Positions 10,801 through 49,151 of a stretch of DNA of 64,000 nt are shown here, piece after piece. The position numbers and the translations under genes were made by a program. Where the stretch lies: positions 1 through 64,000 of the forward strand of contig NZ_JAEUYX010000007.1 of assembly GCF_016798225.1 (NCBI RefSeq), in the 5' to 3' direction. The notes under the pieces were generated by a model. The model did not search any database, was not told the origin of the DNA, and worked only from the letters and a program-made list of their open reading frames with translations. Origin of the DNA: Anaerococcus sp. mt242 (GTDB lineage: Bacteria; Bacillota; Clostridia; Tissierellales; Peptoniphilaceae). Numbering within the stretch: position 1 is the stretch's first letter; each line of letters starts with the position of its first letter.

Positions 10801-11431
10801 CGGTGGTGACGGATGGAGCTACGATATCGGATTTGGTGGTGTAGACCACGTATTAGCAAGTGGTGAAAACATCAACATTCTTGTATTCGATACAGAAGTT
10901 TACTCAAACACAGGTGGACAATCATCTAAATCTACACCATTATCAGCAGTAGCACAATTCGCTGCATCTGGTAAAAAAGTACGTAAAAAAGACCTTGGTT
11001 TAATGATGACTTCATATGGTTACATCTACGTAGCACAAGTAGCTATGGGAGCTAACCAAAACCAAACAATCAAAGCTATCAAAGAAGCTGAAGCTTACGA
11101 TGGACCATCATTAATCATCGCTTACGCACCATGTATCAACCACGGAATTAGAATTGGTATGGGTAAATCACAATTTAGAGAAAAACAAGCTGTTCAAGCT
11201 GGTTACTGGCACTTATGGAGATTTGACCCAAGACTTGCAGAAGAGGGCAAAAATCCATTCCAATTAGACTCTAAAGAACCAAGCGAATCATTCCAAGAAT
11301 TCCTTCAAGGGGAAGTAAGATACTCATCACTTAAGAGATCATTCCCTGAAACAGCAGACGAATTATATGCTGAAGCAGAAAAAGCAGCTAACGATAGATA
11401 CGAAACATATAAGAGACTTGCTGGTAAATAA
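7892..11431 (+). CDS. nifJ: Pyruvate:ferredoxin (flavodoxin) oxidoreductase
   Basis: This 1179-residue single-chain enzyme oxidises pyruvate and CoA to acetyl-CoA and CO2, reducing ferredoxin. It has the N-terminal pyrimidine-binding half (YPITPSSPM near 31), CoA-binding domains II-III, and two [4Fe-4S] ferredoxin motifs (CIQCNQCSFVCP near 691, CTGCGNCADICP near 748). The proximal-cluster cysteines follow (CAGCGETP and ATGCSS, about 817-850). The TPP site is GDGWSYDIG near 972 with NTGGQSSKSTP. AGGAGG lies 5 bases before ATG. Codon choice (many AAC and TTC) differs from its neighbours in the manner of highly expressed genes. It stands alone between a strong promoter and a terminator. Confidence 0.97.
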   Translation: MTITRAMKTMDGNTAAAHVSYAFTDVATIYPITPSSPMPESIDVWSSNGRKNVFDREVMVKEMQSEAGAAAAFHGSLAAGALTTTYTASQGLLLMIPNMYKVAGERLPGVFHVAARTVATHALSIYGDHSDIYAARQTGVAMLCSNSVQEVMDLSPVSHLSAIKGRVPFVNFFDGFRTSHEIQKINVWDYETLENLVDFEAVDNFKNNSLNPERPKHMGTAEKNIFFQRTVSRNNAYTEIVGIVEDYMNQINELIGTNYGLFNYYGQEDAEEVIVAMGSVNQTIRETIDELVKDGYKIGLVEVHLYRPFSKEHLLKVVPNTVKKIAVLDRTKEHGAEGQPLYLDVKSAFYGVENAPVIYGGIYGLSSKDTVPGDIKAVYDNLRKEDTKDNFTLSITDDVTNTSLEREDFKVRHEGTTRCKFWGFGSDGTVGANKQAIKIIGDNTDMFAQGYFDYDSKKSGGLTVSHLRFGKEPIKSTYLLDEADFMSLSKQAYLHQYDVLKGLKDGGTFLLNTTWSEEDLDEHLPANVKRYLAEHNINFYIIDASHIAQEIGLGSRTNMIMQAAFFNLSQVLPIEEAVGYLKDSIVKAYGHKGDDIVNMNYSAVDAGLEAAKKVEVPAEWANATEEEKAEQAEMSEFVKNILRPMIEQKEDDIPVSAFVDLNIENGEFPSGTTEVEKRGIALNVPEWQMENCIQCNQCSFVCPHAVIRPFLVTEDEKANAPEGFETKQAIGKGMEQYEFRIQVSPLDCTGCGNCADICPAPEKALLMKPFDEQVESQKENWEYAHEEVGYKEDVMDDKTLKGSQFKQPLLQFSGACAGCGETPYAKLVTQLFGDRMYVANATGCSSIWGASAPAMSYTINQESGKGPAWGNSLFEDAAEYGYGIKLAAESNKLLLETRMNSFLDLNLDTPLNEAFKMWLEGKEDVNSSKEATAKILTLENETVDSEEGKALLEDIYNLKDYMIKKSLWIFGGDGWSYDIGFGGVDHVLASGENINILVFDTEVYSNTGGQSSKSTPLSAVAQFAASGKKVRKKDLGLMMTSYGYIYVAQVAMGANQNQTIKAIKEAEAYDGPSLIIAYAPCINHGIRIGMGKSQFREKQAVQAGYWHLWRFDPRLAEEGKNPFQLDSKEPSESFQEFLQGEVRYSSLKRSFPETADELYAEAEKAANDRYETYKRLAGK

Positions 11432-11449
11432 GGTTAAAAATTAATTAGC

Positions 11450-11483
11450 AAAAAATGCCATATGAAAATATGGCATTTTTTTT
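11450..11483 (+). terminator. Terminator of nifJ
   Basis: AAAAAATGCCATA pairs with TATGGCATTTTTT around a 6-base loop, followed by more T. It separates nifJ from the accessory operon. Confidence 0.9.
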
Positions 11484-11529
11484 AAAAATAATTAATAAAT
11501 TTTTTAACAAAATTATAATGGAAGCTAAA

Positions 11530-12987
11530 ATGAATAGAGCAATTTTATTTACAAAAGCACCTAATCTAACTAATAGTAAAACAAGACTAAAAGATTTCCT
11601 GTCTGAAAAAGAAAGACTTGATCTGATGAGAAAACTTATAAAGAAAAACTATAAACTTCTAAATCAACAATCCATAGAATCAGTAATATATTTTAGTGGA
11701 TGTGAGTCAGATTTAGACTTTATAGAGAGCCAAAAAATTCCCCAATGTGGAAAAGATTTAGGGGAAAAAATGCGTAATGCAATTTTTAACCAGCTAGATA
11801 CTTACAAGAAAGTTCTTTTAATAGGATCAGACTTAGAAAATCTTACAGAGATACAAATTGAAAAGGCCTTCGAAAAGCTAGACAAATTTGATGTAGTAAT
11901 TGCATCAAGTATTGATGGGGGATATGGCCTGATAGCTATGAAAGAAAAACTGGATATATTTTCTGATATAAAATACTCAACCCCCAATGTATTGGACGAT
12001 ACTATTAAGAAAATAGAAGACCTTGATAAATCATATTTTTTACTTAATCCAATTCGCGATATAGATACCATAAAAGATTTGATAATTGCTGAGTTTGATG
12101 ATGAAAACATTACAGATCTTGGGAATGGTGAATATAATTTAAATTATAAACTTAATGATATGGTAATTAGAATAAATCTTGCATCCCAGATGGGATTAGG
12201 TGAAAATCAATTAAAGTATGAATTTGATGCTTTAAAAACTTTAGAAAAATCTAAGGTTACTCCTAAGGTCTATGATTATTATAAAAATGGTAAATACCTT
12301 AATAAATCATTTATGACTATGGAATATGTCGAGGGTAGACCTCTTAATTATGATACAGATATGGATATTGGAGCAAAATTATTAAGCTCAGTCCATAATT
12401 TGAAAGTAGACTTCAATAAGTTTATCTGGGCTAAAAAACCTTTTCTTAGTATGTATGAGGAATTTCAGTCCATGTTTTCCCATTATCAAAATTATATCCA
12501 CAAAGATCCAATTGTCGAGTCAAAAATTTTGAAATTTTTGAAAATAGCTAAAGATTCAGGTTTAGATTCTGAGATAGAAAATCCATGCATTATAAATACT
12601 GAGTTAAACAATCGTAATTTTATAATTGGTGAAAAATCAGTGGTAATTGATTGGGAAAAACCAATTATTGGTGAGTGCGAACAAGATTTAGCTCACTTTT
12701 TAGTGCCTACTACTACAAATTGGAAGACTGATACAATTTTATCTGAAGGAGATATGCTATCTTTTTTAAAGATTTATGAGAAGTATCGAGAAGTAGATTA
12801 TGATAAGTTTTATAAGTACTTAATGTTTAACTCATTAAGAGGGGTGACATGGTGTTCTATGGCAAAGGTAGAATACGAACAAGATAGATTTTTATCTAAT
12901 GAAGATACACTTATAAAAATAAATAAGTTTTTAAGTATTGAATTTTTAGATATGTTAGAGAAGTTTTATAGGAGCTATAATGGATAA
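11530..12987 (+). CDS. DUF2064 (TIGR04282-like) transferase fused to a choline-kinase/APH-like domain
   Basis: This 485-residue two-domain protein is the first gene of the plus operon. Residues 1-195 match the DUF2064 glycosyl/nucleotidyltransferase family: FTKAPNLTNSKTRL near 7, CGKDLGEKM near 73, IGSD near 98 and the SSIDGGYGLI motif near 126. Residues 205-485 resemble choline/aminoglycoside kinases, with MEYVEGRPL (about 264) and IDWEKPIIGECEQDLAHF (about 373). The catalytic HxDxxxxN loop reads NTELNNRN (356-363), so His and Asp are replaced by Asn and Glu, while DWE is kept. GGAAG lies 5 bases before ATG 11530. An earlier in-frame ATG at 11455 sits inside the nifJ terminator and is unlikely. 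Substrates are unknown. Confidence 0.75.
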   Translation: MNRAILFTKAPNLTNSKTRLKDFLSEKERLDLMRKLIKKNYKLLNQQSIESVIYFSGCESDLDFIESQKIPQCGKDLGEKMRNAIFNQLDTYKKVLLIGSDLENLTEIQIEKAFEKLDKFDVVIASSIDGGYGLIAMKEKLDIFSDIKYSTPNVLDDTIKKIEDLDKSYFLLNPIRDIDTIKDLIIAEFDDENITDLGNGEYNLNYKLNDMVIRINLASQMGLGENQLKYEFDALKTLEKSKVTPKVYDYYKNGKYLNKSFMTMEYVEGRPLNYDTDMDIGAKLLSSVHNLKVDFNKFIWAKKPFLSMYEEFQSMFSHYQNYIHKDPIVESKILKFLKIAKDSGLDSEIENPCIINTELNNRNFIIGEKSVVIDWEKPIIGECEQDLAHFLVPTTTNWKTDTILSEGDMLSFLKIYEKYREVDYDKFYKYLMFNSLRGVTWCSMAKVEYEQDRFLSNEDTLIKINKFLSIEFLDMLEKFYRSYNG

Positions 12988-13417
12988 TAAAAAATTAGAA
13001 AATTTCATGGAAAAGGGCTATAACTGTTCTCAAACAGTATTTTCTTATTTTGCTGAAGATGTGGGAATGGATGAAGAAACTGCAGTAAAAATTTCTACGC
13101 CTTTTGAAATGGGCATGTATAAATCCGATATTTGTGGTGCATTGACTGCATCATATATGGCATTAGGTCATAAATATGGGTCTACAGATCCTTATAAAAA
13201 GATTGAATTAGCAAAGATGATTTATAAACTTGATAAAGAATTTGAAAAAAGAATGGGTCATACAAAATGTGCCAATCTTTTAAAAGTAGATGTAAATACA
13301 GATGATGGATTTAATTATGCAGTGGAAAATGGTTTGTTATCAAAAGTATGTGGCAAATGCATTACAAATGCAATTGAGATTACAGAAGAAATAATGAGGG
13401 AAAATGATGAAAATTAA
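12980..13417 (+). CDS. C_GCAxxG_C_C family redox protein
   Basis: This 145-residue protein belongs to the C_GCAxxG_C_C family, small cysteine-rich proteins often found beside redox or metal-related genes. Conserved cysteines are in GYNCSQ (about 14), DICGALTAS (about 51), HTKCANLL (about 96) and VCGKC (about 114). No signal peptide or membrane segment is seen, so it is probably cytosolic. It overlaps the upstream kinase fusion by 8 bases and the following lipoprotein by 11, so the three are coupled. The family function is not established; the cysteine pattern suggests metal-cluster or thiol chemistry. Confidence 0.8.
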   Translation: MDNKKLENFMEKGYNCSQTVFSYFAEDVGMDEETAVKISTPFEMGMYKSDICGALTASYMALGHKYGSTDPYKKIELAKMIYKLDKEFEKRMGHTKCANLLKVDVNTDDGFNYAVENGLLSKVCGKCITNAIEITEEIMRENDEN

Positions 13418-14705
13418 AAATTTATTTATTACAAGTCTCCTGTGCTTAGGGATATTAACCGGTTGTGCTAACAATGTTAATGAGAAGGCAGTAGAAGAAA
13501 AAGCACCAGTAAAAACAAGCCAATCAGAGGAAAATGAAGAAATTAAAGAAACTTCTGAAACAAGCGATGTAATAAGTGAAGTAAATTATGATGAAATAGC
13601 TAAAAAAGCTGAAGGAACATCTGTAAATTTATATGGATGGGGTGGGGATGATAAGCGTAACCAATGGTTAGATGATTATATAATTCCAAAGATGAAAGAA
13701 GATTATAACATCGAAGTAAATCGTGTAGGCATGGATATTGATGAAATATTAAATCTTATGCTAGCAGAGAAAGATTCTGAAGAAGGTGATGTAGATGTGG
13801 TTTGGATAAATGGTGAAAACTTTGAAAATGCAAAGAATAATGGTTTGCTTTTTGGTCCAATAACACAGGTACTTCCAAATTTTAATGATTATGTAGACCA
13901 AGATGATGAAGGAATAAAATACGATTTTGGTGAACCAGTAGAAAATATGGAAGCACCATATGGTGGAGCTCAATTTGTATTTATGTATGACAGCTCAAAA
14001 ATTGATAATCCACCTAAAAACGCTGAAGAATTATTAGAACTTGCCAAAGCAAACCCTGGAAAAATAACTTATGCTTCTTTGCCAGATTTTACAGGTTCAG
14101 CTTTTATTAGAAATATTATTTCTGATATCCAAGGTTATGAAGAATTTATGGATAAGGATCTAACTAAAGATAAGCTTAAAGAAATGCTAAAACCAACAAT
14201 TGATTATTTAAATGAATTAAAACCATATTTATGGAATGAAGGTCAATCTTATCCAGCAGATAACCCAACTCTAGTAAATATGTTTGCAGATGGTGAATTA
14301 ATAATGGCTATGAGCTATAATCCAAATGCCGCATCAACTGGTGTAGCTGATGGACAATTTAATGAAAATGTAAGGACAGCAGTATTTGATAAGGGGACAA
14401 TCGCAAATACACACTTCTTAGCAATAAGCAAAGGATCTTCAAACAAAGATGCTTCAACGGTTCTTATAAACTTAATATTATCCCCAGAAGCTCAAATTTC
14501 AAAAGCTGATCCTGAAACTTTAGGAGATCTTCCTATAATAGATTACGATAAATTAACTGATGAGCAAAAGAAATTATATGATGAAATTCCAAGCGGTAAA
14601 TACACTTTATCTACAAAAGAATTAGAAGAACATAGAATTCCAGAAATGCCAGCAAATCTTGTGCCTTTGATTGAAGAAATATGGGAAGAAGAAGTACTAA
14701 ACTAA
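13407..14705 (+). CDS. YnjB-like ABC transporter substrate-binding lipoprotein
   Basis: This 432-residue solute-binding protein has a lipoprotein signal peptide with lipobox LTGC (Cys 20) and an acidic Ser/Thr/Glu-rich linker to about residue 60. The mature part matches the COG4134/YnjB pattern: YGWGGDDKRNQWLDDYI, DVVWINGENFENAK, LLFGP, LPNF, APYGGAQFVFMYDSS, NPGKITYASLPDFTGSAF and MSYNPNAAS. The family binds an unknown solute outside the membrane. GAGGG lies 6 bases before ATG 13407, which is preferred to the ATG three bases earlier. It overlaps the genes on both sides, and the permeases and ATPase follow directly. Confidence 0.85.
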   Translation: MKIKNLFITSLLCLGILTGCANNVNEKAVEEKAPVKTSQSEENEEIKETSETSDVISEVNYDEIAKKAEGTSVNLYGWGGDDKRNQWLDDYIIPKMKEDYNIEVNRVGMDIDEILNLMLAEKDSEEGDVDVVWINGENFENAKNNGLLFGPITQVLPNFNDYVDQDDEGIKYDFGEPVENMEAPYGGAQFVFMYDSSKIDNPPKNAEELLELAKANPGKITYASLPDFTGSAFIRNIISDIQGYEEFMDKDLTKDKLKEMLKPTIDYLNELKPYLWNEGQSYPADNPTLVNMFADGELIMAMSYNPNAASTGVADGQFNENVRTAVFDKGTIANTHFLAISKGSSNKDASTVLINLILSPEAQISKADPETLGDLPIIDYDKLTDEQKKLYDEIPSGKYTLSTKELEEHRIPEMPANLVPLIEEIWEEEVLN

Positions 14706-15538
14706 AAAACTTACTTAGCTATTCAGGATTAATACTAATATTATTATTAATCTTGATTGGCTTTAGTAAGTCAATGTTAATAAGTTTTGGACTTTTTAAA
14801 GAAGTAGGGCTTGATAGTTTTACCTTTGACTTTTATAAAGAAGTTCTTAAAGATAAGACTTTTATATCAAGCCTTATTTTTTCTTTAAAAATTTCTATTA
14901 TTTCAAGTATTTTAGCAGTATTGCTGGGTATATTTCTTTCTTATGGCATATTTACCAATAAAATATTTGATATGTATTTAAAACTACCCGTGATTGTGCC
15001 ACATATTATAGTTGCAATTTTATTTGTAAATTTATTTGCCCAAACGGGGGTGATTTCCAGAGTATTTTATAAGCTAAATTTAATAGATGATTCAAGTTCA
15101 TTTATTCAATTATTTTATAACAAAAATGCTTTTGGGATAATTTTAAGCTATGCCTTAAAGGGTGGGGCTTATGCAGGCATGGTTTTTTTAGAAATCTATC
15201 GAAATATTAGTTCAAATCAGCTACTTGCTGCTAAAAATTTAGGGGCAAATGATATTCAACAATACTATTTTATAATTTTCCCTTTTATAAAAAGGCAAAT
15301 GATAGAAACTTTTCTAATACTTTTTAATTTCGCTATAAGTTCTTATGAAGTTCCACTTTTGATAGGTCCCACTAGTCCAAGAACTCTTGCTGCAAAATCT
15401 TATATCGAATTTACTAAAAATAGCTTTGCCTATAAGCCTAAGGCCTTAGTTATAAATATATTTTTAATCATTCTAGGTCTCTTATCATTAGTAATTGTGT
15501 ATATCATAAAGGATGAAATTTATGAAGAAAATGTCTAA
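14681..15538 (+). CDS. ABC transporter permease (YnjC N-terminal half-like)
   Basis: This 285-residue integral membrane protein has about six hydrophobic helices and a BPD_transp_1 cytoplasmic loop around residue 185 (AAKNLGANDIQQYYFIIFPFI, the EAA motif that contacts the ATPase). E. coli YnjC and ThiP carry two such domains in one chain; here they are two genes. It overlaps the binding protein by 25 bases. The ribosome site is weak, so translation is probably coupled. It pairs with the next permease to form the channel of the importer. Confidence 0.82.
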   Translation: MGRRSTKLKNLLSYSGLILILLLILIGFSKSMLISFGLFKEVGLDSFTFDFYKEVLKDKTFISSLIFSLKISIISSILAVLLGIFLSYGIFTNKIFDMYLKLPVIVPHIIVAILFVNLFAQTGVISRVFYKLNLIDDSSSFIQLFYNKNAFGIILSYALKGGAYAGMVFLEIYRNISSNQLLAAKNLGANDIQQYYFIIFPFIKRQMIETFLILFNFAISSYEVPLLIGPTSPRTLAAKSYIEFTKNSFAYKPKALVINIFLIILGLLSLVIVYIIKDEIYEENV

Positions 15539-16310
15539 GATAGTATTATATATTTATATAATTATATTAATATTTGCGGGAATAGATTTGTTATTTACTA
15601 GCTTTAGACAAAATTATCCTTGGCCAAACTTAGTATCTGCTAATTATTCTTTACGATCCTATTTGTACTTATATAGAGATAGGAAATTTATCAAAGGAAT
15701 ACTAAATTCATTAATAATTGGCTTAAGTTCTAGTACCTTTTCAGTTTTACTGTCCATTGCAATTACTAAAAAAATTTATTATAAGTCTAGGGGATATAGA
15801 CTAATAAGTTTTATAGTTTTTTTACCTTTTTTAATAGGCGCTACTAGTATAGGCCTTGGTTTGCAATTATTTTTTAAATCTATTGGAGTTACTGGCTCAA
15901 AAATACTTATTATAATTGCTCAAAGCATTTACATTATTCCTTATGCAGTTAGGATACTAAAAGCTGGGTATAGTTTTCTATCTGATAATCTCATTTATGC
16001 TGGAAAAATGTTAGGGGCTGGAGATAAAGAAATTAAAAGAGAAATAGTTTTTCCAATCCTAGCGCCTTTTATAAAGACAGCCTTTATTATGGGATTCATT
16101 CTTTCGATTAGCGAATACTATCTAACCCTAGTATTAGGATCTGGCCTTGTAGAAAGTTTTATGACTGTAGCTTTTCCATTTTTTGTAGCTAGAGATAGGG
16201 CAATTTCTTCAGCAGTGAGCATAGTATTTTTAATTATTAATATCATTTTTATATTAATCATAGAAGTGATTTTTAAAATAGTATTTAGGAGGAAAAAATG
16301 GGTCTTATAA
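15522..16310 (+). CDS. ABC transporter permease (YnjC C-terminal half-like)
   Basis: This 262-residue membrane protein has about six helices and an EAA loop (AGKMLGAGDKEIKREIVFPI, about residue 160). It is the second permease of the YnjBCD-like importer. AAAGG lies 9 bases before ATG 15522. Another ATG at 15513 directly abuts that ribosome site and is less likely. It overlaps the preceding permease by 17 bases and the ATPase by 13. Confidence 0.82.
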   Translation: MKKMSKIVLYIYIIILIFAGIDLLFTSFRQNYPWPNLVSANYSLRSYLYLYRDRKFIKGILNSLIIGLSSSTFSVLLSIAITKKIYYKSRGYRLISFIVFLPFLIGATSIGLGLQLFFKSIGVTGSKILIIIAQSIYIIPYAVRILKAGYSFLSDNLIYAGKMLGAGDKEIKREIVFPILAPFIKTAFIMGFILSISEYYLTLVLGSGLVESFMTVAFPFFVARDRAISSAVSIVFLIINIIFILIIEVIFKIVFRRKKWVL

Positions 16311-17221
16311 GGGCAAAGAATATAAGCAAGTCATATAATAATAAAAAAATACTTGATAATATAAGCTTTGATTTAGAATCTGGTCAAGTTTTATCTATTG
16401 TTGGCAATAGTGGATCGGGAAAGAGCACTTTATTAAAAATTATCTCTGGAATTATAGAAGAATTTTCTGGGAAAATATATTTAAATGAAAAAGAAATCAC
16501 AAACTTATCTATAAAGGAACGTAAATTTATCCTTATGTTCCAAGATGATGAACTATTTCCTCATATGACAATTTTTGATAATGTTGGTTTTGGCCTAAAA
16601 ATGGATGGTAAAGATAAAGACTATATAACAAAAGAGGTGGAAAAATATCTAAATTTGGTTGGACTAATAGAGCATAAAGATAAGTACCCATCTCAATTAT
16701 CAGGGGGAGAAAAACAAAGAATTGCCCTAGCTCGTAGCTTGATTGTAAAACCAAAAATGCTTTTACTAGATGAGCCATTTACTGCACTTGATCCAACTTT
16801 AAGAAATAAACTAAGAAGTGAAACTTTTAAAATCATAAAAGATCAGAATATCCCAACTATATTTGTAAGCCATGACCTAAATGAAGCAGTGGAAGTAGCA
16901 GATAAACTTGCAATCCTTGCTGATGGGAAATTTATAGCCTATGATAGGCCCAAAAATATTTATCAAAATCCAGACAATAAGGCCACTGCAAGTTTTATAT
17001 TTAAGGATAATATAATAGGTAAAAAACTTATCAAAAAATCTGATATTGATATAATAGACGGTGATGATTACAGTGTTATAGAAAAAACTTATAGGGGAGA
17101 TTTTTTTTCTTATAAATTGGATGGTCAATATACTTTGTCAGTAGATAGCCCTAAAGAATATTTTTTAGGTGATAAGATAGGGATAAATATAAAACAAGTG
17201 ATAGAATTGGAGGAGAAGTGA
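16298..17221 (+). CDS. ABC transporter ATP-binding protein (YnjD-like)
   Basis: This 307-residue ATPase powers the importer from the cytoplasmic face. Walker A is GNSGSGKS (about 37), followed by the Q-loop FQDDELFPHM (about 83), the signature LSGGEKQRIALARSL (about 133), Walker B LLLDEPFTALDP and the H-loop VSHDLNEAVE. About 70 residues after the nucleotide domain (240-307) look like a TOBE-type regulatory extension, longer than in E. coli YnjD. AGGAGG lies just before ATG 16298. It overlaps the nucleoside hydrolase start as GTGA. Confidence 0.92.
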   Translation: MGLIRAKNISKSYNNKKILDNISFDLESGQVLSIVGNSGSGKSTLLKIISGIIEEFSGKIYLNEKEITNLSIKERKFILMFQDDELFPHMTIFDNVGFGLKMDGKDKDYITKEVEKYLNLVGLIEHKDKYPSQLSGGEKQRIALARSLIVKPKMLLLDEPFTALDPTLRNKLRSETFKIIKDQNIPTIFVSHDLNEAVEVADKLAILADGKFIAYDRPKNIYQNPDNKATASFIFKDNIIGKKLIKKSDIDIIDGDDYSVIEKTYRGDFFSYKLDGQYTLSVDSPKEYFLGDKIGINIKQVIELEEK

Positions 17222-18039
17222 AAAAAGTTATAATAGATACAGATTGTACTATAGATATAAAAGGGTGTGACTTAGATGATGCTTTTGCAATTCTTTATTT
17301 GATAGCCCATCCTGATATAGATGTGAGACTTATTACAACAACTTTTGGTAATAATAATGAGGATGTAACTTACAATGCTACAAAAAAAATGCTAGATGAT
17401 TTAAATATTGACATACCACTTGTAAAGGGCGGCCTTTACATCCATGATGCGGCAGAAGCTATAAAAAAAGAAGTTGAAGAAAATGATGATATCATCATTT
17501 TATCTTTAGGAGCAACAAGCAATAGTCAAAAGGCTCTAGCCTTAGGAATGGTTCCTAAAAGAGTAAAATCTTTTGTAGCCATGGGTGGGATTACAGATGA
17601 ACTTAGATTTAACAAAAAAATTATGCGTGAGCTAAACCTAAGTATAGACTATCTATCCACTATATATGCATTAAAAAGATTTGATAATATTGATGTCATT
17701 ACTGGCAATAATTGTATGAAGCACAAATATCAAGTGCCAGTTAATGCGGTTTATAAAAGTGAGTTTATGAATTATTTGAAACCATCTCTAAATAGGGTTA
17801 GTGAAGAATTTATGGATGAGTTTGGAGAAAGCAAATTAGTTGTTTGGGATGCACTGGCTGCACTTTATATAACAAATCCAGAATACTTCACTGACTATAA
17901 AAAAGATATATCATTAGATGAACATTTACTAAATGGATACCTGGTGGAAGGAAATGATAAAAAAGTAAATTTACCAGAAATAAAAGAAAATATAAATGCT
18001 ATGAAGTATATAGTATCAATAATTGAAAACAATAATTAA
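17218..18039 (+). CDS. Nucleoside hydrolase-like protein with altered N-terminal motif
   Basis: This 273-residue protein is similar to inosine/uridine-preferring nucleoside hydrolases, which split the N-glycosidic bond of ribonucleosides. The usual DTDPGxDDA metal and ribose site is replaced by DTDCTIDIKGCDLDDAF (residues 7-23), an insertion carrying two cysteines. Downstream, LSLGATSN, VAMGG and ELNLSIDYLST match the order of the family. The C-terminal catalytic segment has VVWDALAALYI, where the family has an aspartate before the helix. The start is GTG 17218 with GGAGGAGA before it, overlapping the ATPase stop. It is the last gene of the plus operon. A changed substrate is plausible. Confidence 0.75.
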   Translation: MKKVIIDTDCTIDIKGCDLDDAFAILYLIAHPDIDVRLITTTFGNNNEDVTYNATKKMLDDLNIDIPLVKGGLYIHDAAEAIKKEVEENDDIIILSLGATSNSQKALALGMVPKRVKSFVAMGGITDELRFNKKIMRELNLSIDYLSTIYALKRFDNIDVITGNNCMKHKYQVPVNAVYKSEFMNYLKPSLNRVSEEFMDEFGESKLVVWDALAALYITNPEYFTDYKKDISLDEHLLNGYLVEGNDKKVNLPEIKENINAMKYIVSIIENNN

Positions 18040-18069
18040 AAAGACGGGGAATGATCCTCGTCTTTTTTA
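18038..18069. terminator. Bidirectional terminator between the two accessory operons
   Basis: AAAAAGACGGGGA pairs with TCCTCGTCTTTTT over 13 bp with one G-T wobble and the loop ATGA. A-runs on one side and T-runs on the other let it work in both directions. It sits between the nucleoside hydrolase and the glycosyltransferase. Confidence 0.9.
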
Positions 18070-18732
18070 TATTTTTTTATAAAGTTTAGCTATTTTTTCT
18101 ATATCATAACCTTTCCTATACATTTTTTGCAAAATTTTCATCATAAATCCAGTCCTTAGGGGATGATTTTTTAATCTTCTTGAGGAAGTATATATAGGGT
18201 AGTCTACTTGCTTTAACTTATAACCATGGTCTTTGATATCCATAGATAATTGATAATCTTCCATTAAAGGAATTGCCTTATATCCTCCGATTTTTTCGAA
18301 AATTTCTCTTTTTATAAATATGCCTTGGTCACCAAAAGCAATATTTTTTCTCTTTACCCTTAGATTTGAGAAAAATTCTATAAAATCTAGGCTAGGATTT
18401 GTTGGATGAAATTTTAAGGTAAAACAACCTGCATCAAGATTGGATTTTTCTATTACTTTTATACAATCAGGACCTATATAGCTATCACAGTGGAGGAAAA
18501 ATAAGTAATCACCCTTGGCATACTTACTTGCTGCATTCATCTGATTTGATCTATACTTTGTTTCTCTTATTTTAGGATATGTGATTAGGTCGTAAGTTCC
18601 ATCACTACTAAAACCATCAGTAAATATTACCTCGATATCTCCCTTTATTTTAGCTAATTGTTTTTCAATTTTTTTTACATTTTCTACTTCATTATAAGTT
18701 GGAATTATTATTGTTACCATGTTTTTTATCAT
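18067..18732 (-). CDS. TIGR04283-like family 2 glycosyltransferase
   Basis: This 221-residue GT-A glycosyltransferase is the last gene of the minus operon. TIIIPTYNE (about 7), the DGFSSDGT motif (about 39), RSNQMNAASKYAKGD (about 61), FLHCDS (about 78), FGDQGIFIKRE (about 133), PLMEDYQLS (about 154) and SSRRLKNHPLRTG (about 178) match the TIGR04283 transferase that accompanies TIGR04282 proteins. No membrane segment is present, so it is cytosolic. It overlaps the upstream membrane protein by 41 bases with no clear ribosome site; ATG 18720 is an equally possible start. Donor and acceptor are unknown. Confidence 0.8.
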   Translation of the reverse strand: MIKNMVTIIIPTYNEVENVKKIEKQLAKIKGDIEVIFTDGFSSDGTYDLITYPKIRETKYRSNQMNAASKYAKGDYLFFLHCDSYIGPDCIKVIEKSNLDAGCFTLKFHPTNPSLDFIEFFSNLRVKRKNIAFGDQGIFIKREIFEKIGGYKAIPLMEDYQLSMDIKDHGYKLKQVDYPIYTSSRRLKNHPLRTGFMMKILQKMYRKGYDIEKIAKLYKKI

Positions 18733-19363
18733 ATATTTTTTTAGCTAGGAGGGTCAATACTGTAAATGCCACAAGAATTACTATTGAAATTATAAATTCT
18801 TTACTACCCACATCTGTTATAGCTGTCCCTACATTTAAATAAACCAAAGTTCCTGGAATAACTGAGATGATAGTAGTAAGTAAAAATGGTACAAATTTTA
18901 TTTCAGTTAAGCCTGCAAGATAGTTTTCAAAAATATAAGGAACTGCAGGTACTAGTCTAAATATAATAAAAGTAGTTATAAGTTTTTTCTGATCTTTAGT
19001 ATAAATTAAATCTAAATATTGATCAGGTAATTTATCTTTTAAGATATTATAAACTTTATCCTTAGCATATTTGTGTGAGATTAAATACATCAGTGTTGTA
19101 TTTGTAGCAACCCCAATTGTTGTATATATTAGTCCGTTTAAAAATCCAAACAATGTTCCACCTACTATTACAATACTAAGGGTCGGGAATAAAAAGACAG
19201 GAAGTATTGTAAATGCGATTATATATATTATAGGTGCTAAAGCTCCGTAAGATTCTATTTTTGCTTGTAATATATCTATATTAATTGATTTATTTACCCA
19301 AACTATTAAAGCTATCACTAGGATAGCTTTAATAACATTATAGATTTGTTTTGTGTTTTTCAT
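18692..19363 (-). CDS. TVP38/TMEM64 (VTT-domain) membrane protein
   Basis: This 223-residue protein has about six hydrophobic segments and the VTT/SNARE-associated core: GGTLFGFLNGLIYTTIGVATN (from about 68) and FIIFRLVPAVPYIFENYLAG (about 131). The family is related to DedA proteins and YdjX/YdjZ of E. coli, with proposed lipid-scramblase or transport roles. It overlaps the upstream paralogue by 26 bases and the glycosyltransferase by 41, so it is an internal gene of the minus operon. It is more divergent than its neighbour, ending in an Asn-rich tail. Confidence 0.82.
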   Translation of the reverse strand: MKNTKQIYNVIKAILVIALIVWVNKSINIDILQAKIESYGALAPIIYIIAFTILPVFLFPTLSIVIVGGTLFGFLNGLIYTTIGVATNTTLMYLISHKYAKDKVYNILKDKLPDQYLDLIYTKDQKKLITTFIIFRLVPAVPYIFENYLAGLTEIKFVPFLLTTIISVIPGTLVYLNVGTAITDVGSKEFIISIVILVAFTVLTLLAKKIYDKKHGNNNNSNL

Positions 19364-20069
19364 TGTATCTTTTTCTTATGAAAGCTACGAGAACAGCAAG
19401 GATAGATATGATTATTACAAACATAAATATTCCACGTGCTCCGCCATCAAGCTCTCCACCTGTGTAGGAATACACAATAGTTGCTGGTAATTGTCCAAGT
19501 CCTGTGGCTAGGAAAAATCCCCAGAAACCCATTGATGTAAGTCCTGCAGCATAGCTTACAATATCAAAAGATATAAATGGTAAAAGTCTTGCTAAAAGAA
19601 TAGTGTGTTTACCATATCTTGCAAAGAAATCTTCGATATTTTCTAAAGCTCCTTTGCTAGAAAGTTTGATAACTGCATCACGGCCTAGTGATCTTGCTAT
19701 AAAAAAGCATAATGCGGCTCCAACCATAGCTGAAGACCATGAAAGTATAGCTCCCTTAACCCAGCCAAAAATAGCTGCATTGGCTAGTGTTATCAAAACT
19801 GCAGGAATAGGTGCTATAACAGATTGTAAAACCATTAATAAAAAAGAAACTACAGCTGCTTTTGCGCCATAACCACGGATGTATTCAATAACACCACTTA
19901 AACCACCAGTACTGATGGCTTTTAAAGCGTTATTAATTCCATTTCTAAATGATGGGATTATGAAATAAGCTAGTAATAAAACTAATAGGGGCACCAAAAT
20001 AGCAAGTTTAGAAGAATTTTTTAATCGTTCTTCTTGTGGATTTGTCTTATCTGTGTGTCTCTGTGTCAT
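19338..20069 (-). CDS. TVP38/TMEM64 (VTT-domain) membrane protein, YdjX/YdjZ-like
   Basis: This 243-residue integral membrane protein has a hydrophilic N-terminus (about 1-22), a first helix, and a VTT core with NAAIFGWVKGAILSWSSAM (about 97), ARSLGRDAV (about 125) and LLARLLPFISFDIVSYAAGL (from about 157). It pairs with the next gene as a duplicated unit, as E. coli ydjX and ydjZ do. It starts 11 bases after the rhodanese lipoprotein. A function in moving lipids or a lipid-linked product is possible but unproven. Confidence 0.85.
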   Translation of the reverse strand: MTQRHTDKTNPQEERLKNSSKLAILVPLLVLLLAYFIIPSFRNGINNALKAISTGGLSGVIEYIRGYGAKAAVVSFLLMVLQSVIAPIPAVLITLANAAIFGWVKGAILSWSSAMVGAALCFFIARSLGRDAVIKLSSKGALENIEDFFARYGKHTILLARLLPFISFDIVSYAAGLTSMGFWGFFLATGLGQLPATIVYSYTGGELDGGARGIFMFVIIISILAVLVAFIRKRYNEKHKTNL

Positions 20070-20080
20070 ATTTTATTACC

Positions 20081-20911
20081 TTAATTTTCAGATAGATCAT
20101 ATCCGTCGTATTCTTTAGTACCATCAAGAGCGTTTATTACTTCATGGCCTTCATTTGCTAACATATCAGCTACTTTAAATGATCTGTTTCCTGAGTAGCA
20201 GTGTGTTAAGAATGGTTTATCAGTTGGTAATGTTTTGATTAATTCTTCTGCTTGATCAACTGGAACATTAATTGCTCCTGCTAAGTGACCTTTATTGTAG
20301 TCTTTCTCATCTCTAACATCTACGATTGTGTAATCGCCTGTTTTTGCAAGTTCTATAAATTCTGGTCCTGATACTGATGTTACTTTTGTTTTTGTGGTGT
20401 AATCAAAATCTCCATATGCTCCAGCAGATTTTACATTTGTAAATCCATTATCTACTAAAGTCTTATAAGCTTCTTCTGCTTTTCCAGTAGTTTCACCGTA
20501 AACAACAACATTTTTGTCTTTAGAATCAGCTAGTTCATCAATTCTTTCAGCTAATTCATCAGCTGGAAGTGTGATAGCGTGTTTTACGTGTCCTTCTTTG
20601 TAAGCTTCAGCTTTTCTTGTATCAATTACTAGATATTTTTCCTTTTCGTCGTTATCTTCTTGGATTTTATCTAGTTCTTCACCTGTAATTGTTTTAACTT
20701 CAGTTTCGGAATTATCTTTAGCAGTATCATCAGTGGTTGCTTCATCTGTTGTAGATGTTTCTGATTTGTTAGTATCTTCACTTGTATTTTCTGTAGAAGT
20801 AGTATCTTCAGTTTTTGTTTTTTCTGGTGCTGTAGCTGTGTTATTTCCACAACCTGTTAGGGCAAAAGTACCAATTAGCATAAGTGTAAGTAGTTTATTT
20901 GTTTTTTTCAT
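20081..20911 (-). CDS. Lipoprotein with two rhodanese domains, one lacking the catalytic Cys
   Basis: This 276-residue lipoprotein has lipobox LTGC (Cys 21), a Thr/Ser/Glu/Asp-rich linker (about 28-72) and two rhodanese-like domains (about 74-172 and 178-272). In the second, the active-site loop is HCYSGNRS with Cys 238, suitable for persulfide transfer. In the first, the corresponding site reads VYGETTGKA with no cysteine, so it is likely non-catalytic. It would work on the outer face of the membrane. It overlaps the small membrane protein by 17 bases, placing it within the minus operon. Confidence 0.85.
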   Translation of the reverse strand: MKKTNKLLTLMLIGTFALTGCGNNTATAPEKTKTEDTTSTENTSEDTNKSETSTTDEATTDDTAKDNSETEVKTITGEELDKIQEDNDEKEKYLVIDTRKAEAYKEGHVKHAITLPADELAERIDELADSKDKNVVVYGETTGKAEEAYKTLVDNGFTNVKSAGAYGDFDYTTKTKVTSVSGPEFIELAKTGDYTIVDVRDEKDYNKGHLAGAINVPVDQAEELIKTLPTDKPFLTHCYSGNRSFKVADMLANEGHEVINALDGTKEYDGYDLSEN

Positions 20912-21284
20912 ATTTTTCTCCTATTTTGTTAAATTCTAAAATATTTATCAATAGCAATAAAAATGATATTGCATATTTAGTAAGCTTAAATTTATTAATA
21001 TTAATGGTCATTAAGATTAATATTGCAATTGTAGACAATAAATTAATAACTCTTAATGTTTTGTACTTATAAAAGTTATAGATTAAATAAATCAATAATC
21101 CCAAGCTAATAAGTATTATTATGATTTTAATATTATAATTATTTTCTAAATTGTAATTATAGTAAACTAGTGTTCTTTGAACTCCCATTTTTTTTCTTGA
21201 AAAGTATTGGATTAAAAAAATGCCTAATAAGAAAATTAATTGAAAGATCGAAAGTATAATATTTTTATTCTGTGGCTTTGTCAT
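20895..21284 (-). CDS. Small integral membrane protein, function unknown
   Basis: I do not recognise this 129-residue protein. It has four hydrophobic segments (about 9-25, 52-70, 79-95 and 103-117), short basic loops and a basic C-terminus, with a very AT-rich coding sequence. It overlaps the sulfurtransferase gene by 20 bases and the rhodanese gene by 17, so it is co-translated with both. The tight placement between two extracytoplasmic rhodanese lipoproteins suggests a part in the same system, for example passing a thiol or anchoring the pair. Confidence 0.65.
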   Translation of the reverse strand: MTKPQNKNIILSIFQLIFLLGIFLIQYFSRKKMGVQRTLVYYNYNLENNYNIKIIIILISLGLLIYLIYNFYKYKTLRVINLLSTIAILILMTININKFKLTKYAISFLLLLINILEFNKIGEKYEKNK

Positions 21285-22437
21285 TTGATAAGTCGCCGAC
21301 TTTTTTTATTTCTGCACCATCTTTTGGATCACCAAGTTGGGCAGGAAGTTCATCATGCATTTGCCACTCGTTCCATCCACCATCAAATAATTTTGCAGTA
21401 ATTCCTTTTTCATAGAATTTTAGGATTGGCAGGGCAGCTCTCCAACCAGTTCCGCAGTAAAATACCATTTCTTTGCTGGTGTCTACACCTTCAGCCTCTA
21501 ACATTTTTATCATATCTGTGTAGATGATATATGTTCCATCTGGATTTTTATAGTTCGCTTCATCATGGCCGTATATTGCACCTGGCAGTTCACATGCTTT
21601 TGGAATATAAGAATATCCACTGGTTTCACCGACATATTCTTCATAGCTTCTAGTAGAAATGTATTGAACATCATCATTTTCATCTTCAATGTCTTTTTTA
21701 GCTTCTTCTAGGCTCACTATAAATTCTGGGTGGGCAGGATATTCACCTTTAAAATCATCTTTGGCAACTGCTTTATTTTCACCATCTTCTGTTTCATAAC
21801 CCTTGTCCATCCAAACTTTAAGGCCGCCATCAATTAGCTTTATGTTTTCAACACCTTCTATCAGATAGGCTAGAGCTACTCTTGGTGCTCCAGAATCAGG
21901 ACCGTATAAAAATACTGTTGTATCTTTATCAATTCCGTAATCTAGCATTGATTTTACAATTTCATCATCGCTTTTTAAATTCCAAACTGGGCCCTCTTCG
22001 ATAGTATCAGTATTTATATGAATAGCTCCTGGGATATGATTTTTTAAATAATCCTCGCTGGCGTCAGCTTCACCCCAAGTAACTTCTGCTATTACATAAT
22101 CACCAACATCTTCTTTGCCATCAATTACATCTTTTACATACTCAGCTGTAACAAAAATATCCTTGTTTTTTGTCCTTCCACAGCAATCAAGTATTTCACC
22201 GTCATCAGAATCTTTGATAGTTTCAGATGCAATTTCTTTTTTTTCACCATTTTTTGATTCTTCATTTGATTCTTCTACTTCATTGCTGTCTGATGTTTCT
22301 TCGCTTACTTTTTCATTTTCTGCAGTATTTTCATTTGCATTTTGATTTGAACAAGCTGTAATACTTAAAACAAAAAACAAAGTAAAAAATGAAAGGCCAA
22401 GTTTTTTTATGATTTGATTAATATTTAATTTTTTCAT
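21265..22437 (-). CDS. YnjE-like sulfurtransferase lipoprotein
   Basis: This 390-residue lipoprotein has lipobox ITAC (Cys 29), an acidic linker (about 31-80) and two rhodanese domains (about 92-220 and 235-365). The second has the active loop YCGTGWRA (Cys 328), the form I recall for E. coli YnjE. The first has LYGPDSGAP and no cysteine there. A vicinal pair DCCGR (85-86) before the first domain may act in thiol relay. YnjE sits beside the YnjBCD transporter in E. coli, and a YnjBCD-like transporter is encoded nearby here. It starts 12 bases after the iron-sulfur gene. Confidence 0.85.
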   Translation of the reverse strand: MKKLNINQIIKKLGLSFFTLFFVLSITACSNQNANENTAENEKVSEETSDSNEVEESNEESKNGEKKEIASETIKDSDDGEILDCCGRTKNKDIFVTAEYVKDVIDGKEDVGDYVIAEVTWGEADASEDYLKNHIPGAIHINTDTIEEGPVWNLKSDDEIVKSMLDYGIDKDTTVFLYGPDSGAPRVALAYLIEGVENIKLIDGGLKVWMDKGYETEDGENKAVAKDDFKGEYPAHPEFIVSLEEAKKDIEDENDDVQYISTRSYEEYVGETSGYSYIPKACELPGAIYGHDEANYKNPDGTYIIYTDMIKMLEAEGVDTSKEMVFYCGTGWRAALPILKFYEKGITAKLFDGGWNEWQMHDELPAQLGDPKDGAEIKKVGDLSNDKATE

Positions 22438-22449
22438 TTATTCTCCTGT

Positions 22450-23376
22450 TTATTTAAAAAATTTCGCTTTAAGTGCATTTTTTAAATAATCCGTATTTAC
22501 TTCTTCATCGATGCCTAAAAATACTGAGACAAAGTGGTGGACCTTGTTATATTTGGAAAATCGCATAGAACAAGTTGCACAATAAGTATAAATCTCATCA
22601 TTTTTAATAGATTGAGCCATACCATCTGCTATTTCTTTTTCCTTTTTACTTGCTAGACCTCCTGCACCACAGCAATTAGTTGATTTAAACTTATCTTGCC
22701 ATTTTGGAGCGTGTCTTTTAATGACTTCAAATATTTCTCTATTATATCTATCAGAACATGGGTAAAATACATTGCATTCATGATCTATGTCTTTTATATA
22801 ATTATATTCTTCTAGCCATTCAAATATAGAAATTATTTGAGCATCGTATTTATTTTTCATCTGATGGTAGCAGTTTGGACATGCAGTTACAATCCTATCT
22901 ATATCCAGATTTTTTATTTGATCATCTAATAACTTACTAGGAGTATCTTTGTATCCTGAGCTTTTAACTGGATTTTTGCAACAGTCGATAGAAAAATCAA
23001 AACCCTTATCTTTAAATAAGTCTATTAAAGTCTTAGAAGTTTCTGGATAAAATGCTGGAAAGTTGCAACCTAGATATAAAAGATCCCTTGATTTACCTTT
23101 GTTTTTTGGAAGGTTTCTAAAGGGGTAGGATTCTTTAGTAAGTTTTACGAGTTTATATTTTGGAGTATTTTGTCTAAATGCCAGTGAAATATATTTGCCG
23201 TTTAAATTTTTAGGACAAACATCACTACATTTATTGCATAAAAAGCATGAATAAGCTAAGTCTTCTCTTTTAGTAAAATCTAATAAGTTTATACTATATT
23301 TACTCAAAAATGGACAATTATCAGTACATAGCCCGCACTTGATACAATTGTCCTTAACTATTTTCAGATAATCCAT
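22450..23376 (-). CDS. 4Fe-4S/CCG-domain oxidoreductase (HdrB/GlpC-like)
   Basis: This 308-residue cytosolic protein starts with two ferredoxin motifs, CIKCGLCTDNCP (from residue 11) and CFLCNKCSDVCP (about 43). Two cysteine-rich CCG segments follow: CCKNPVKSSG (about 132) with CPNCYHQM (about 166), and NCCGAGG (about 236) with CATCSMRF (about 268). This is the layout of HdrB/GlpC-type electron carriers that act on disulfides or persulfides. It is the first gene of the minus operon, reading away from the 23377-23640 intergenic region. It could supply electrons for thiol or sulfur chemistry in this system. The exact partner is unknown. Confidence 0.82.
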   Translation of the reverse strand: MDYLKIVKDNCIKCGLCTDNCPFLSKYSINLLDFTKREDLAYSCFLCNKCSDVCPKNLNGKYISLAFRQNTPKYKLVKLTKESYPFRNLPKNKGKSRDLLYLGCNFPAFYPETSKTLIDLFKDKGFDFSIDCCKNPVKSSGYKDTPSKLLDDQIKNLDIDRIVTACPNCYHQMKNKYDAQIISIFEWLEEYNYIKDIDHECNVFYPCSDRYNREIFEVIKRHAPKWQDKFKSTNCCGAGGLASKKEKEIADGMAQSIKNDEIYTYCATCSMRFSKYNKVHHFVSVFLGIDEEVNTDYLKNALKAKFFK

Positions 23377-23640
23377 TTTATTTCCAATCTTTATGATAAA
23401 ATATTTTAAGTGTGTACTAAAGCCTAGGGCTTATCTTAAAATATTACATTTAGCTTATAAATATATTCAAACTTCATAGTGTACTTATTGCCTTTGCAAT
23501 TATGAAAATGTTGTCATATATCCGTTTATATATTAACACAAAAGATTATTTTGTCAATATATATACAGCAAATCTAGAATGCTTATAGTATAATATAACA
23601 AATATATATGATATAATAGGTCCAAATAATGGAGGATACA
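23377..23640. other. Divergent AT-rich intergenic region between the accessory operon and the Asp23-fakA operon
   Basis: About 260 bases with no gene. It contains a small hairpin AAGCC-TAG-GGCTT (about 23420-23432), two direct copies of GTGTACT (23412-23418 and 23479-23485) and several TATAAT-like words (23589-23594, 23612-23617). On the minus strand TTGAAT followed 18 bases later by TAATAT could serve the iron-sulfur operon. The repeats might be operators, but this is only a suggestion. Confidence 0.45.
23551..23580 (+). promoter_or_regulatory. Possible promoter of the Asp23-fakA-recG operon
   Basis: TTGTCA (23551-23556), an 18-base spacer and TAGAAT (23575-23580). The start codon is about 60 bases downstream. 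Other TATAAT words nearby lack a good -35. Confidence 0.4.
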
Positions 23641-23994
23641 ATGTCTATAAAATACGTAAATAATTTAGGCAAGGTTACTATAGATGATTCTGTACTCAGC
23701 AACATAGTTGCAGCTACAGTAATGCAATCATACGGTGTAGTCGGCCTTGCATCACAATCAGCAAAAGATGATATTTATCAATTATTAAAACTAGAAAATA
23801 TGAGCAAAGGTGTAGAAATACATAGAAGAGATGATGGAACTCTTACAATTAATATTTCAATTTTTATCCTGTATGGTGTAAGAATTTCAGTAGTAGCACA
23901 AAATATAATTGACAATGTAAAATATACAGTCGAAAAATCTCTAAATGTTAGAGTTTCTGATGTAAATATTTTGGTGCAAGGAATAGGACAGTAG
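23641..23994 (+). CDS. Asp23/Gls24 family envelope-stress protein (YloU-like)
   Basis: This 117-residue DUF322 protein has the core VLSNIVAATVMQSYGVVGLA and GVRISVVAQNIIDNVKYTVE. The family is linked to cell-envelope stress and often sits directly before fakA, as yloU does before yloV. ATG 23641 is preferred because GGAGG (23631-23635) lies 5 bases before it; the ATG at 23629 overlaps that ribosome site. It leads the operon running to 29080. Confidence 0.88.
   Translation: MSIKYVNNLGKVTIDDSVLSNIVAATVMQSYGVVGLASQSAKDDIYQLLKLENMSKGVEIHRRDDGTLTINISIFILYGVRISVVAQNIIDNVKYTVEKSLNVRVSDVNILVQGIGQ

Positions 23995-46630: not shown

Positions 46631-49151
<2,521 letters not shown>

Follow-up and report, generated by a model that had tools for sequence, protein, structure and literature searches.

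The fourteen open reading frames (ORFs) considered here form a convergent block at positions 11530-23376 of the window, which is the whole analysed stretch of 64,000 nucleotides (bases 1-64000 of contig C40) from the 1.69 Mb genome of Anaerococcus sp. mt242, a member of the order Tissierellales. Seven genes are encoded on the plus strand (11530-18039) and seven on the minus strand (18067-23376), with ten of the twelve same-strand junctions overlapping and the remaining two spaced by 11-12 bases. Both operons run into a common hairpin terminator of 13 pairs with T runs on both flanks (18038-18067). A terminator scan of positions 11000-24000 returned two sites against 5.0 expected in shuffles, the weaker one lying inside a gene, and the hairpin counts as evidence because of its position exactly between the operons, not because of its mere presence in the scan. 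These ORF positions and the hairpin confirm the layout of seven genes per strand with a shared terminator described in an earlier note on this DNA. Upstream of the minus-strand operon lies a promoter-like site on the minus strand (TTGACA-16-TAATAT, 23530-23557), one of 66 sites in a consensus scan for which 74.9 were expected by chance. A tentative reading, whose probability we place a little below even, is that the block provides an arsenosugar-type pathway with its back end and with a front end for salvage.

The plus-strand operon opens with a fusion gene (11530-12987) that joins a TIGR04282 domain (approximately residues 5-184; 142.6 bits, cut-off 134, and 145.6 in the genome search) to a kinase-like domain of the APH fold (approximately residues 190-485; PF01636, 28.7 bits, cut-off 23.2). 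The next gene encodes a putative redox protein of the C_GCAxxG_C_C type (12980-13417; PF09719, 99.4 bits; TIGR01909, 55.1 bits, cut-off 47.4), followed by the importer genes: a YnjB-family lipoprotein with an LTGC lipobox as the substrate-binding protein (SBP; 13404-14705; NF008633, 444.9 bits, cut-off 203), two ABC permeases carrying PF00528 (14681-15538 and 15513-16310), and a YnjD-like ABC ATPase (16298-17221; PF00005). The operon closes with an N-ribohydrolase of the nucleoside-hydrolase family (17218-18039; PF01156, IU_nuc_hydro, 80.9 bits, cut-off 34.2).

The minus-strand operon begins with an Fe-S protein containing two [4Fe-4S] clusters and two CCG domains (22450-23376; PF02754 in two stretches), the latter presumably of the heterodisulfide-reductase type; its CCG cysteines are invariant in all 43 homologues and its [4Fe-4S] cysteines in 37 of them. 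It is followed by a YnjE-like sulfurtransferase lipoprotein with two rhodanese domains and a CGTGWR loop (21265-22437; PF00581; PDB 2wlr at E 9.5e-52), a 129-aa membrane protein (20895-21284), and a further lipoprotein with two rhodanese domains, the second bearing a CYSGNRS loop (20081-20911; PF00581 in two stretches; LTGC lipobox). Two TVP38/VTT membrane proteins with PF09335 come next, one YdjZ-like (19338-20069) and one paralogue (18692-19363), and the operon ends with a GT2-type glycosyltransferase of TIGR04283 (18067-18732; 193.8 bits, cut-off 182). The VTT domains score 70.3 and 91.7 (cut-off 33.9) and the rhodanese domains 104.1 and 82.2 (cut-off 22.2). The TIGR04282/TIGR04283 pair named in the earlier note is thus present, with both members over their cut-offs. 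Lipoboxes read from the sequence mark three proteins of the block as lipoproteins, namely the YnjB-like protein and the two with rhodanese domains, whose sulfur-transfer domains are accordingly expected to face the outside of the cell.

The 129-aa membrane protein has no Pfam or NCBIfam match at E <= 0.01, and BLAST retrieved matches in just four loci, all of the same genus, among the 80 named loci; a protein resembling it by eye occupies the equivalent position in L042, L047, L055, and L057. Two small membrane families without a confident name recur in these neighbourhoods, one adjoining YnjE-like genes (as at window 20895-21284) and the other adjoining YdjY genes (L081 68-463 and L149 17422-17820, alike by eye and with a WLxMRxH stretch). 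Riboswitches were considered as a clue to the ligand and dropped, because none was found at E <= 1 in window positions 10500-24500; the RNA search in 14 other loci returned two riboswitches (purine and TPP) that do not belong to the cluster genes by position, a cobalamin riboswitch, and tRNA-Sec twice.

The TIGR04282 domain belongs to the DUF2064/CofC-like nucleotidyltransferase fold. In an AlphaFold2 (AF2) model of the fusion protein, built from 36 sequences with a pLDDT of 93.7, the N-terminal part resembles 3cgx (Z 23.5, 2.7 Å, 204 aligned) and the phosphoglycerate guanylyltransferase 7p97 (Z 19.5, 2.5 Å, 184 aligned), a likeness that speaks for the transfer of nucleotidyl rather than glycosyl groups. 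The C-terminal part matches APH, choline-kinase, and homoserine-kinase structures with nearly tied scores (3dxp, Z 22.5; 3dxq, Z 22.4, 3.1 Å, 272 aligned; 2ppq, Z 21.4, 3.0 Å, 275 aligned), as well as the sugar kinase NahK (4ocv; Z 20.0, 3.5 Å, 289 aligned). Its loop N356-T357-E358-x-N360-x-x-N363 is invariant in the 36-sequence alignment and in 45/45 homologues. By analogy, a kinase and a nucleotidyltransferase in one protein is the logic of sugar salvage; FKP, a bifunctional salvage kinase/pyrophosphorylase whose kinase fold is unrelated to that of the fusion, likewise unites both kinds of domain in one polypeptide.

In the hydrolase, D7, D20, D21, N45, E138, N140, and W210-D211 are invariant in 31/31 cluster homologues. 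Loss of the Asn that we take to contact the 5'-OH was considered as a mark of a 5'-substituted substrate and rejected, the position being Asn in 23/31 homologues and thus uninformative. When modelled with AF2 (pLDDT 84.5), the YnjB-like protein was matched by one aligner to many glycoside- and nucleotide-binding SBPs, tied at Z 27-29, and by Foldseek to iron, polyamine, and sugar-phosphate binders, and its relatives among solved structures amount to just two weak SBP matches. A ligand assignment from the fold was consequently rejected, since sugar, polyamine, and iron binders are tied and no ligand can be read from them.

The earlier note also likened the block to the ydjXYZ-ynjBCDE genes of E. 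coli, a likeness that is clear for YdjZ (52% identity over 206 aa), YnjE (36% over 291 aa), YnjD (35%), and YnjB (33%), all with counterparts in the window, and looser for the rest. YnjC is matched weakly by the two permeases, the upstream one resembling its first half (E 2.8e-7) and the downstream one its second half (E 5.8e-7), while the only counterpart of YdjX is the TVP38 paralogue, which is no closer to YdjX (27%) than to YdjZ (32%). The YdjY counterpart lies on another contig, C13, and YnjA belongs to an AhpD-like subfamily other than TIGR04169. In turn, the E. coli ydjXYZ-ynjABCDE stretch lacks TIGR04282, TIGR04283, hydrolase, kinase, ArsS, and ArsM genes. The CGTGWR loop is common to both YnjE proteins. 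E. coli YnjE has three rhodanese domains and the window protein two Pfam rhodanese stretches; the alignment covers E. coli residues 145-428, and the N-terminal region of the E. coli protein aligns with nothing in its window counterpart.

Since YnjE is annotated as a molybdopterin synthase sulfurtransferase, the block might supply sulfur for molybdopterin, in line with the listing of ynjE and ydjXYZ-ynjABCD as directly FNR-activated in E. coli (PMC3688515). However, both rhodanese proteins should act outside the cell, and a family-model search of the block proteins found no molybdenum gene, which makes this explanation very improbable.

The conservation of the neighbourhood was evaluated in 199 genomes of the order, using TIGR04282 as bait (found in 50 genomes at E <= 0.001, in 48 over the cut-off) and fetching stretches of up to 20 kb, often truncated where a contig stopped. 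Counts of ArsS (hits over the cut-off) and YnjB cover whole genomes, those of kinase and hydrolase the fetched stretches. TIGR04283 occurs in all 50 stretches, TVP38 in 46 (the two TVP38 columns cross-match in these counts), the Fe-S/CCG gene in 43, and the kinase in 38. In L043 and L048, the rhodanese, TIGR04282-kinase, two TVP38, TIGR04283, Fe-S, YnjB-permease-permease-ATPase, and hydrolase genes all lie on one strand, and we therefore treat the two convergent operons as one unit. The earlier proposal of a single system, which was to fail if the family models did not match or if the genes were rarely neighbours elsewhere, withstood this comparison: the models matched, and the genes are true neighbours in other genomes, in some relatives as a single same-strand operon.

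Two wider samples were also used. Among 398 genomes of the phylum, TIGR04282 was found in 44 at E <= 0.001 and in 27 over the cut-off, own genome included; 29 were taken on (26 over the cut-off plus G212, G458, and G296 below it), the weaker rest being dropped, and stretches were fetched from 28, with G458 omitted (76% complete, neither ArsS nor YnjB). A kinase-alignment scan of one genome per species in 84,980 species yielded 345 relatives, and the best 80 loci were analysed. These best 80 of the 345 include Peptoniphilus, Ezakiella, Finegoldia, Gemella, Facklamia, Aerococcus, Campylobacter, Coriobacteria, Oscillospiraceae, and Lachnospiraceae, and they contain the TIGR04282 domain in 66 loci, TIGR04283 in 63, the hydrolase in 32, YnjB in 29, and ArsS in 16, with YnjB and ArsS together in a single one (L149). 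Incomplete clusters exist, such as Gemella loci with just the rhodanese, the fusion, and one TVP38 gene, and one stretch (L203) unites TIGR04282, kinase, TIGR04169-like, ArsS, ArsM, TIGR04283, and hydrolase genes.

The earlier note had found no radical SAM partner in the block, which is true of the block itself; the genome nevertheless encodes the radical SAM enzyme ArsS (TIGR04167) on contig C13 (405.9 bits, cut-off 300). In oxo-arsenosugar biosynthesis, ArsS is described as adenosylating arsenic (PMC12159101). Its neighbours on C13 are a TIGR04169 protein (153.6, cut-off 120), an ArsM homologue, and a YdjY-domain lipoprotein (142.7, cut-off 50). The ArsM homologue retains cysteines in its FYGCGS, SNCVINL, and GECLGGA stretches, which we take to be the arsenic-binding ones. 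In the ArsS gene, an in-frame TGA takes the place of the Cys codon of another member (GSS-U-GGSLE versus GSS-C-GGGLT), and SelD is encoded in the same genome. Moreover, window genes 79-1092 and 1158-1766 find their closest matches in genes that follow the ArsS locus in A. octavius and A. sp. Marseille-Q5996, a synteny that would place ArsS and ArsM beyond an assembly break, a few kilobases ahead of the first base of the window; judging from these gene orders, the C13 locus probably joins the window start.

All five components of the arsenosugar biosynthesis cluster (ArsM, ArsS/TIGR04167, TIGR04169, TIGR04282, and TIGR04283) are therefore found here, ArsM as a homologue below its cut-off, but they are split over two loci. 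Unlike that cluster, the block has a nucleoside hydrolase and a TIGR04282-fused kinase and, by family models, no nucleoside phosphorylase among its fourteen genes, and it adds the YnjBCD importer, the TVP38 pair, the rhodanese lipoproteins, and the CCG protein. Near ArsS, no nucleoside phosphorylase was seen by eye in selected ORFs of L085, L086, L088, L090, and L091, no full search having been made.

The distribution of ArsS and YnjB suggests that the cluster can be fed in two alternative ways. Within the order, ArsS exceeds its cut-off in 22 genomes, every one of which belongs to the 50 carrying TIGR04282. Those 50 divide into 20 with ArsS only, 27 with YnjB only, two with both (the present genome and A. 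octavius), and one with neither. Ignoring shared ancestry, Fisher tests of exclusivity give 1e-10 in the order and 6e-4 within the family alone. Outside the order, 11 of the 28 TIGR04282 genomes have ArsS, six YnjB, none both, and 11 neither (p 0.055, ancestry again ignored). The kinase is in the TIGR04282 stretch of 31/33 YnjB-only genomes versus 9/31 ArsS-only ones, and the hydrolase in 22/33 versus 3/31; when four genomes (L093, L094, L104, and L105) are also credited with their separate stretches around YnjB, the YnjB-only counts rise to 32/33 and 25/33, respectively, and neither gene occurs in any of 12 ArsS-centred stretches. In a tree of 72 TIGR04283 rows, ArsS undergoes at least 9 changes and YnjB at least 10. 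This near-exclusion suggests that import supplies what ArsS makes. Long-form ArsM, in turn, is present in 13/22 ArsS genomes of the order versus 0/177 others, so the earlier, speculative link to arsenic gains support on the ArsS side, while for the importer we can only infer arsenic as the cargo.

On this basis, a coherent arsenosugar-type route can be proposed in which every chemical step, the acceptor, and the direction of TVP38 transport are inferred. Since the hydrolase and kinase accompany the importer and fit the role of a missing phosphorylase, and since ArsS adenosylates arsenic, the route would run from an ArsS-made or imported 5-substituted riboside to the free sugar, the sugar-1-phosphate, the NDP-sugar, and finally a glycoside. 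In the first feed, ArsM would methylate arsenite and ArsS would add a 5'-deoxyadenosyl group to the arsenic. In the second, YnjBCD would import a ready-made riboside, the hydrolase would cut it, and the kinase domain would phosphorylate the freed sugar at C1. The suggestion in the earlier note that the hydrolase replaces the phosphorylase is plausible in this refined form, with hydrolase and fused kinase together doing its work. Both feeds are proposed to be interchangeable, and the present genome has both. Downstream, the TIGR04282 domain would convert the 5-modified ribose-1-phosphate into an NDP-sugar, the TIGR04283 glycosyltransferase would pass the sugar to an acceptor (glycerol or a lipid), and the TVP38 pair would move a lipid-linked product or precursor across the membrane, while the Fe-S/CCG protein, the C_GCAxxG_C_C protein, and the two rhodanese lipoproteins would carry out thiol, persulfide, or arsenic-sulfur redox work. 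An arsenosugar subjected to a series of artificial digestions, the last with enteric bacteria, is described as being converted to its thio form with the deoxyribose retained (PMC6656958), and one may speculate by analogy that the outward-facing sulfurtransferases could serve such a thiolation. Among the top-ranked literature matches, titles and abstract openings yielded no link of YnjB, YnjE, or TVP38 to arsenosugars.

Several observations weigh against this arsenosugar-type pathway. The block contains no arsenic gene, and none of the 33 importer-only stretches has ArsM. The ArsM homologue on C13 scores below the cut-off of its best model (NF008823, arsenite methyltransferase; 190.8 bits, cut-off 263). 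Distant ArsM homologues (E <= 1e-30, about 110-156 bits) occur genome-wide in 24 further genomes, including 9/27 importer-only and 3/20 ArsS-only genomes of the order, and a sharp division by ArsM is thus confined to its long form. In addition, arsenosugars are expected to be scarce in gut and mucosal habitats, where the kinase relatives are common. YnjB occurs without TIGR04282 in 8 of the 37 YnjB genomes of the order, and outside the order both feeds are missing from 11 TIGR04282 genomes, seven of which have another radical SAM gene in the fetched stretch. When phylogeny is controlled for, the five supported independent pairs of the 72-row tree give 3.3 with YnjB opposite to ArsS and 0 with both the same (p 0.25), and the seven pairs of a 103-row tree, from which loci under 15 kb or near-identical were dropped and in which named loci were scored within their own stretch, give 3.7 and 0.1 (p 0.125); the direction of the exclusivity is consistent, but the test is not significant, with too few contrasts. 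Finally, the catalytic loop of APH and choline kinases is HxDxxxxN, in place of which the fusion carries N-T-E-x-N-x-x-N on a matching fold, so that kinase activity is not assured and the domain could represent a modified kinase or a transferase of another type.

The radical SAM genes of the genomes with neither feed are ArsS-like in L113, L124, and L125 and of another kind in L123, L130, L132, and L134, the domain being checked with Pfam for L125 and L130 only. The four of the other kind, which by eye we take to be BioB-like, share their stretch with TIGR04282 (L123 10408-11424, L130 10456-11385, L132 12813-13853, and L134 10304-11302) and possibly represent a third feed.

Part of this evidence would equally suit the same enzymology working on another element, i.e., an importer whose cargo is a common riboside, either ordinary or 5-substituted (5-deoxyribose, methylthioribose, or a different nucleoside from the host mucosa), to be activated and built into a glycolipid or glycoside, arsenic being just one substrate where ArsS is present. 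The wide occurrence of kinase relatives in host-associated Bacillota, Campylobacter, and Coriobacteria fits such a role, as do the importer-only stretches without ArsM and the other radical SAM proteins of several clusters with neither feed. A precedent is the salvage of 5-deoxyribose, in which a nucleosidase and a kinase are reported to do the job of a phosphorylase (PMC6079011). The same source describes this alternative for 5-deoxyribose disposal (drdKIA) and methylthioribose salvage, with transporters in some clusters; in contrast to these, no isomerase or aldolase family was matched here, and activation, not degradation, would be the fate of the sugar phosphate. What speaks for arsenic instead is the near-exclusion with ArsS, as well as ArsR-family regulators with a CxC motif, which occur at some loci of both types, including the importer-type L061, L080, and L175. 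An ordinary riboside is thus a serious alternative, to which we assign clearly less weight than to the arsenosugar-type pathway.

Regulators of the ArsR type near some clusters, together with ArsS and the ArsM homologue in this genome, could also indicate detoxification, in which methylated arsenicals would be conjugated to sugar for export and the ABC system would carry an unrelated cargo. Nevertheless, importer-only stretches lack both ArsM and ArsS, and a binding-protein-dependent ABC system is an importer, so we regard this explanation as quite improbable.

Selenium is tightly associated with these clusters. SelD is encoded in 50/50 TIGR04282 genomes of the order versus 116/149 others, and in 27/27 versus 26/53 within the family. 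In-frame TGA codons indicate selenocysteine in 13/46 ArsS-type ORFs (a set that includes weak relatives and repeats some genomes), at the rhodanese active-site Cys in three loci, and in two ArsM proteins. A selenoprotein form of the Fe-S protein was rejected, given that no in-frame TGA aligns within it and TGAs at the gene end are read as ordinary stops. GRDB-like selenoproteins with a U-YIC motif lie in or beside the cluster in Facklamia (L149 and L153), Aerococcus (L155 and L162), Atopobacter, and L073, a genome of the order, the Pfam GRDB model having been tested for L149 only. Moreover, SelA and, by eye, what we take to be SelB (L155) directly precede the TIGR04282-kinase gene in the two Aerococcus loci, and tRNA-Sec adjoins the cluster in the two Facklamia loci, as if the selenocysteine machinery travelled with the cluster. 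A LysR regulator and two YedE/FdhT-like half-proteins stand beside the cluster in L059, L062, L064, L066, and L070 (LysR selenium-metabolism model NF040786, 254.5, cut-off 250, tested for L066; YedE halves for L070 and L062).

These associations, above all those with SelD, the recurrent YedE halves, the SelA and tRNA-Sec neighbours, and the TGA-aligned rhodanese cysteine, would be expected if YnjBCD took up a compound containing selenium or sulfur, the element then being relayed by the rhodaneses, the CCG protein, and neighbours of the YedE type. Selenocysteine in the cluster proteins, however, accounts for the use of selenium, and such an acquisition system leaves the hydrolase, kinase, nucleotidyltransferase, and glycosyltransferase unexplained. 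From the codons, selenium is read as a tool of the cluster enzymes and not as their cargo; the selenium link speculated on in the earlier note is thus not needed for the cargo, and we keep it as a rival of rather low probability.

Elsewhere in the window, the ORF at 46631-48694 presumably encodes a V-type ATPase subunit I-like protein, whose N-terminal half contains two similar copies of a segment of about 200 residues, and a 760-aa ORF at 40954-43236, which we take to be a fusion of IspH-like and S1-domain (RpsA-like) parts, contains a 74-nt direct repeat at 42335 and 42590.

The proposed arsenosugar-type pathway would unite three loose ends, namely the E. coli ydjXYZ-ynjABCDE genes, the TIGR04282/TIGR04283 pair, and the variant APH-fold kinase, in a single scheme whose steps can be assayed. 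Since most of ydjXYZ-ynjBCDE has counterparts here, it also offers a testable ligand class for YnjB and thereby a prediction for an importer of the standard laboratory bacterium E. coli, where its relatives have no known job. In its broadest form, YnjBCD, that of E. coli included, would import arsenical or similarly 5-substituted ribosides with high affinity, and many host-associated bacteria would use it to gather arsenosugar-type units from outside for a membrane glycolipid or glycoside in place of producing them through ArsM and ArsS, which would make arsenic sugars a shared, useful metabolite; we consider this wider claim unlikely. If the arsenic part is true, organoarsenic sugar metabolism would extend beyond algae and cyanobacteria into human-associated anaerobes.

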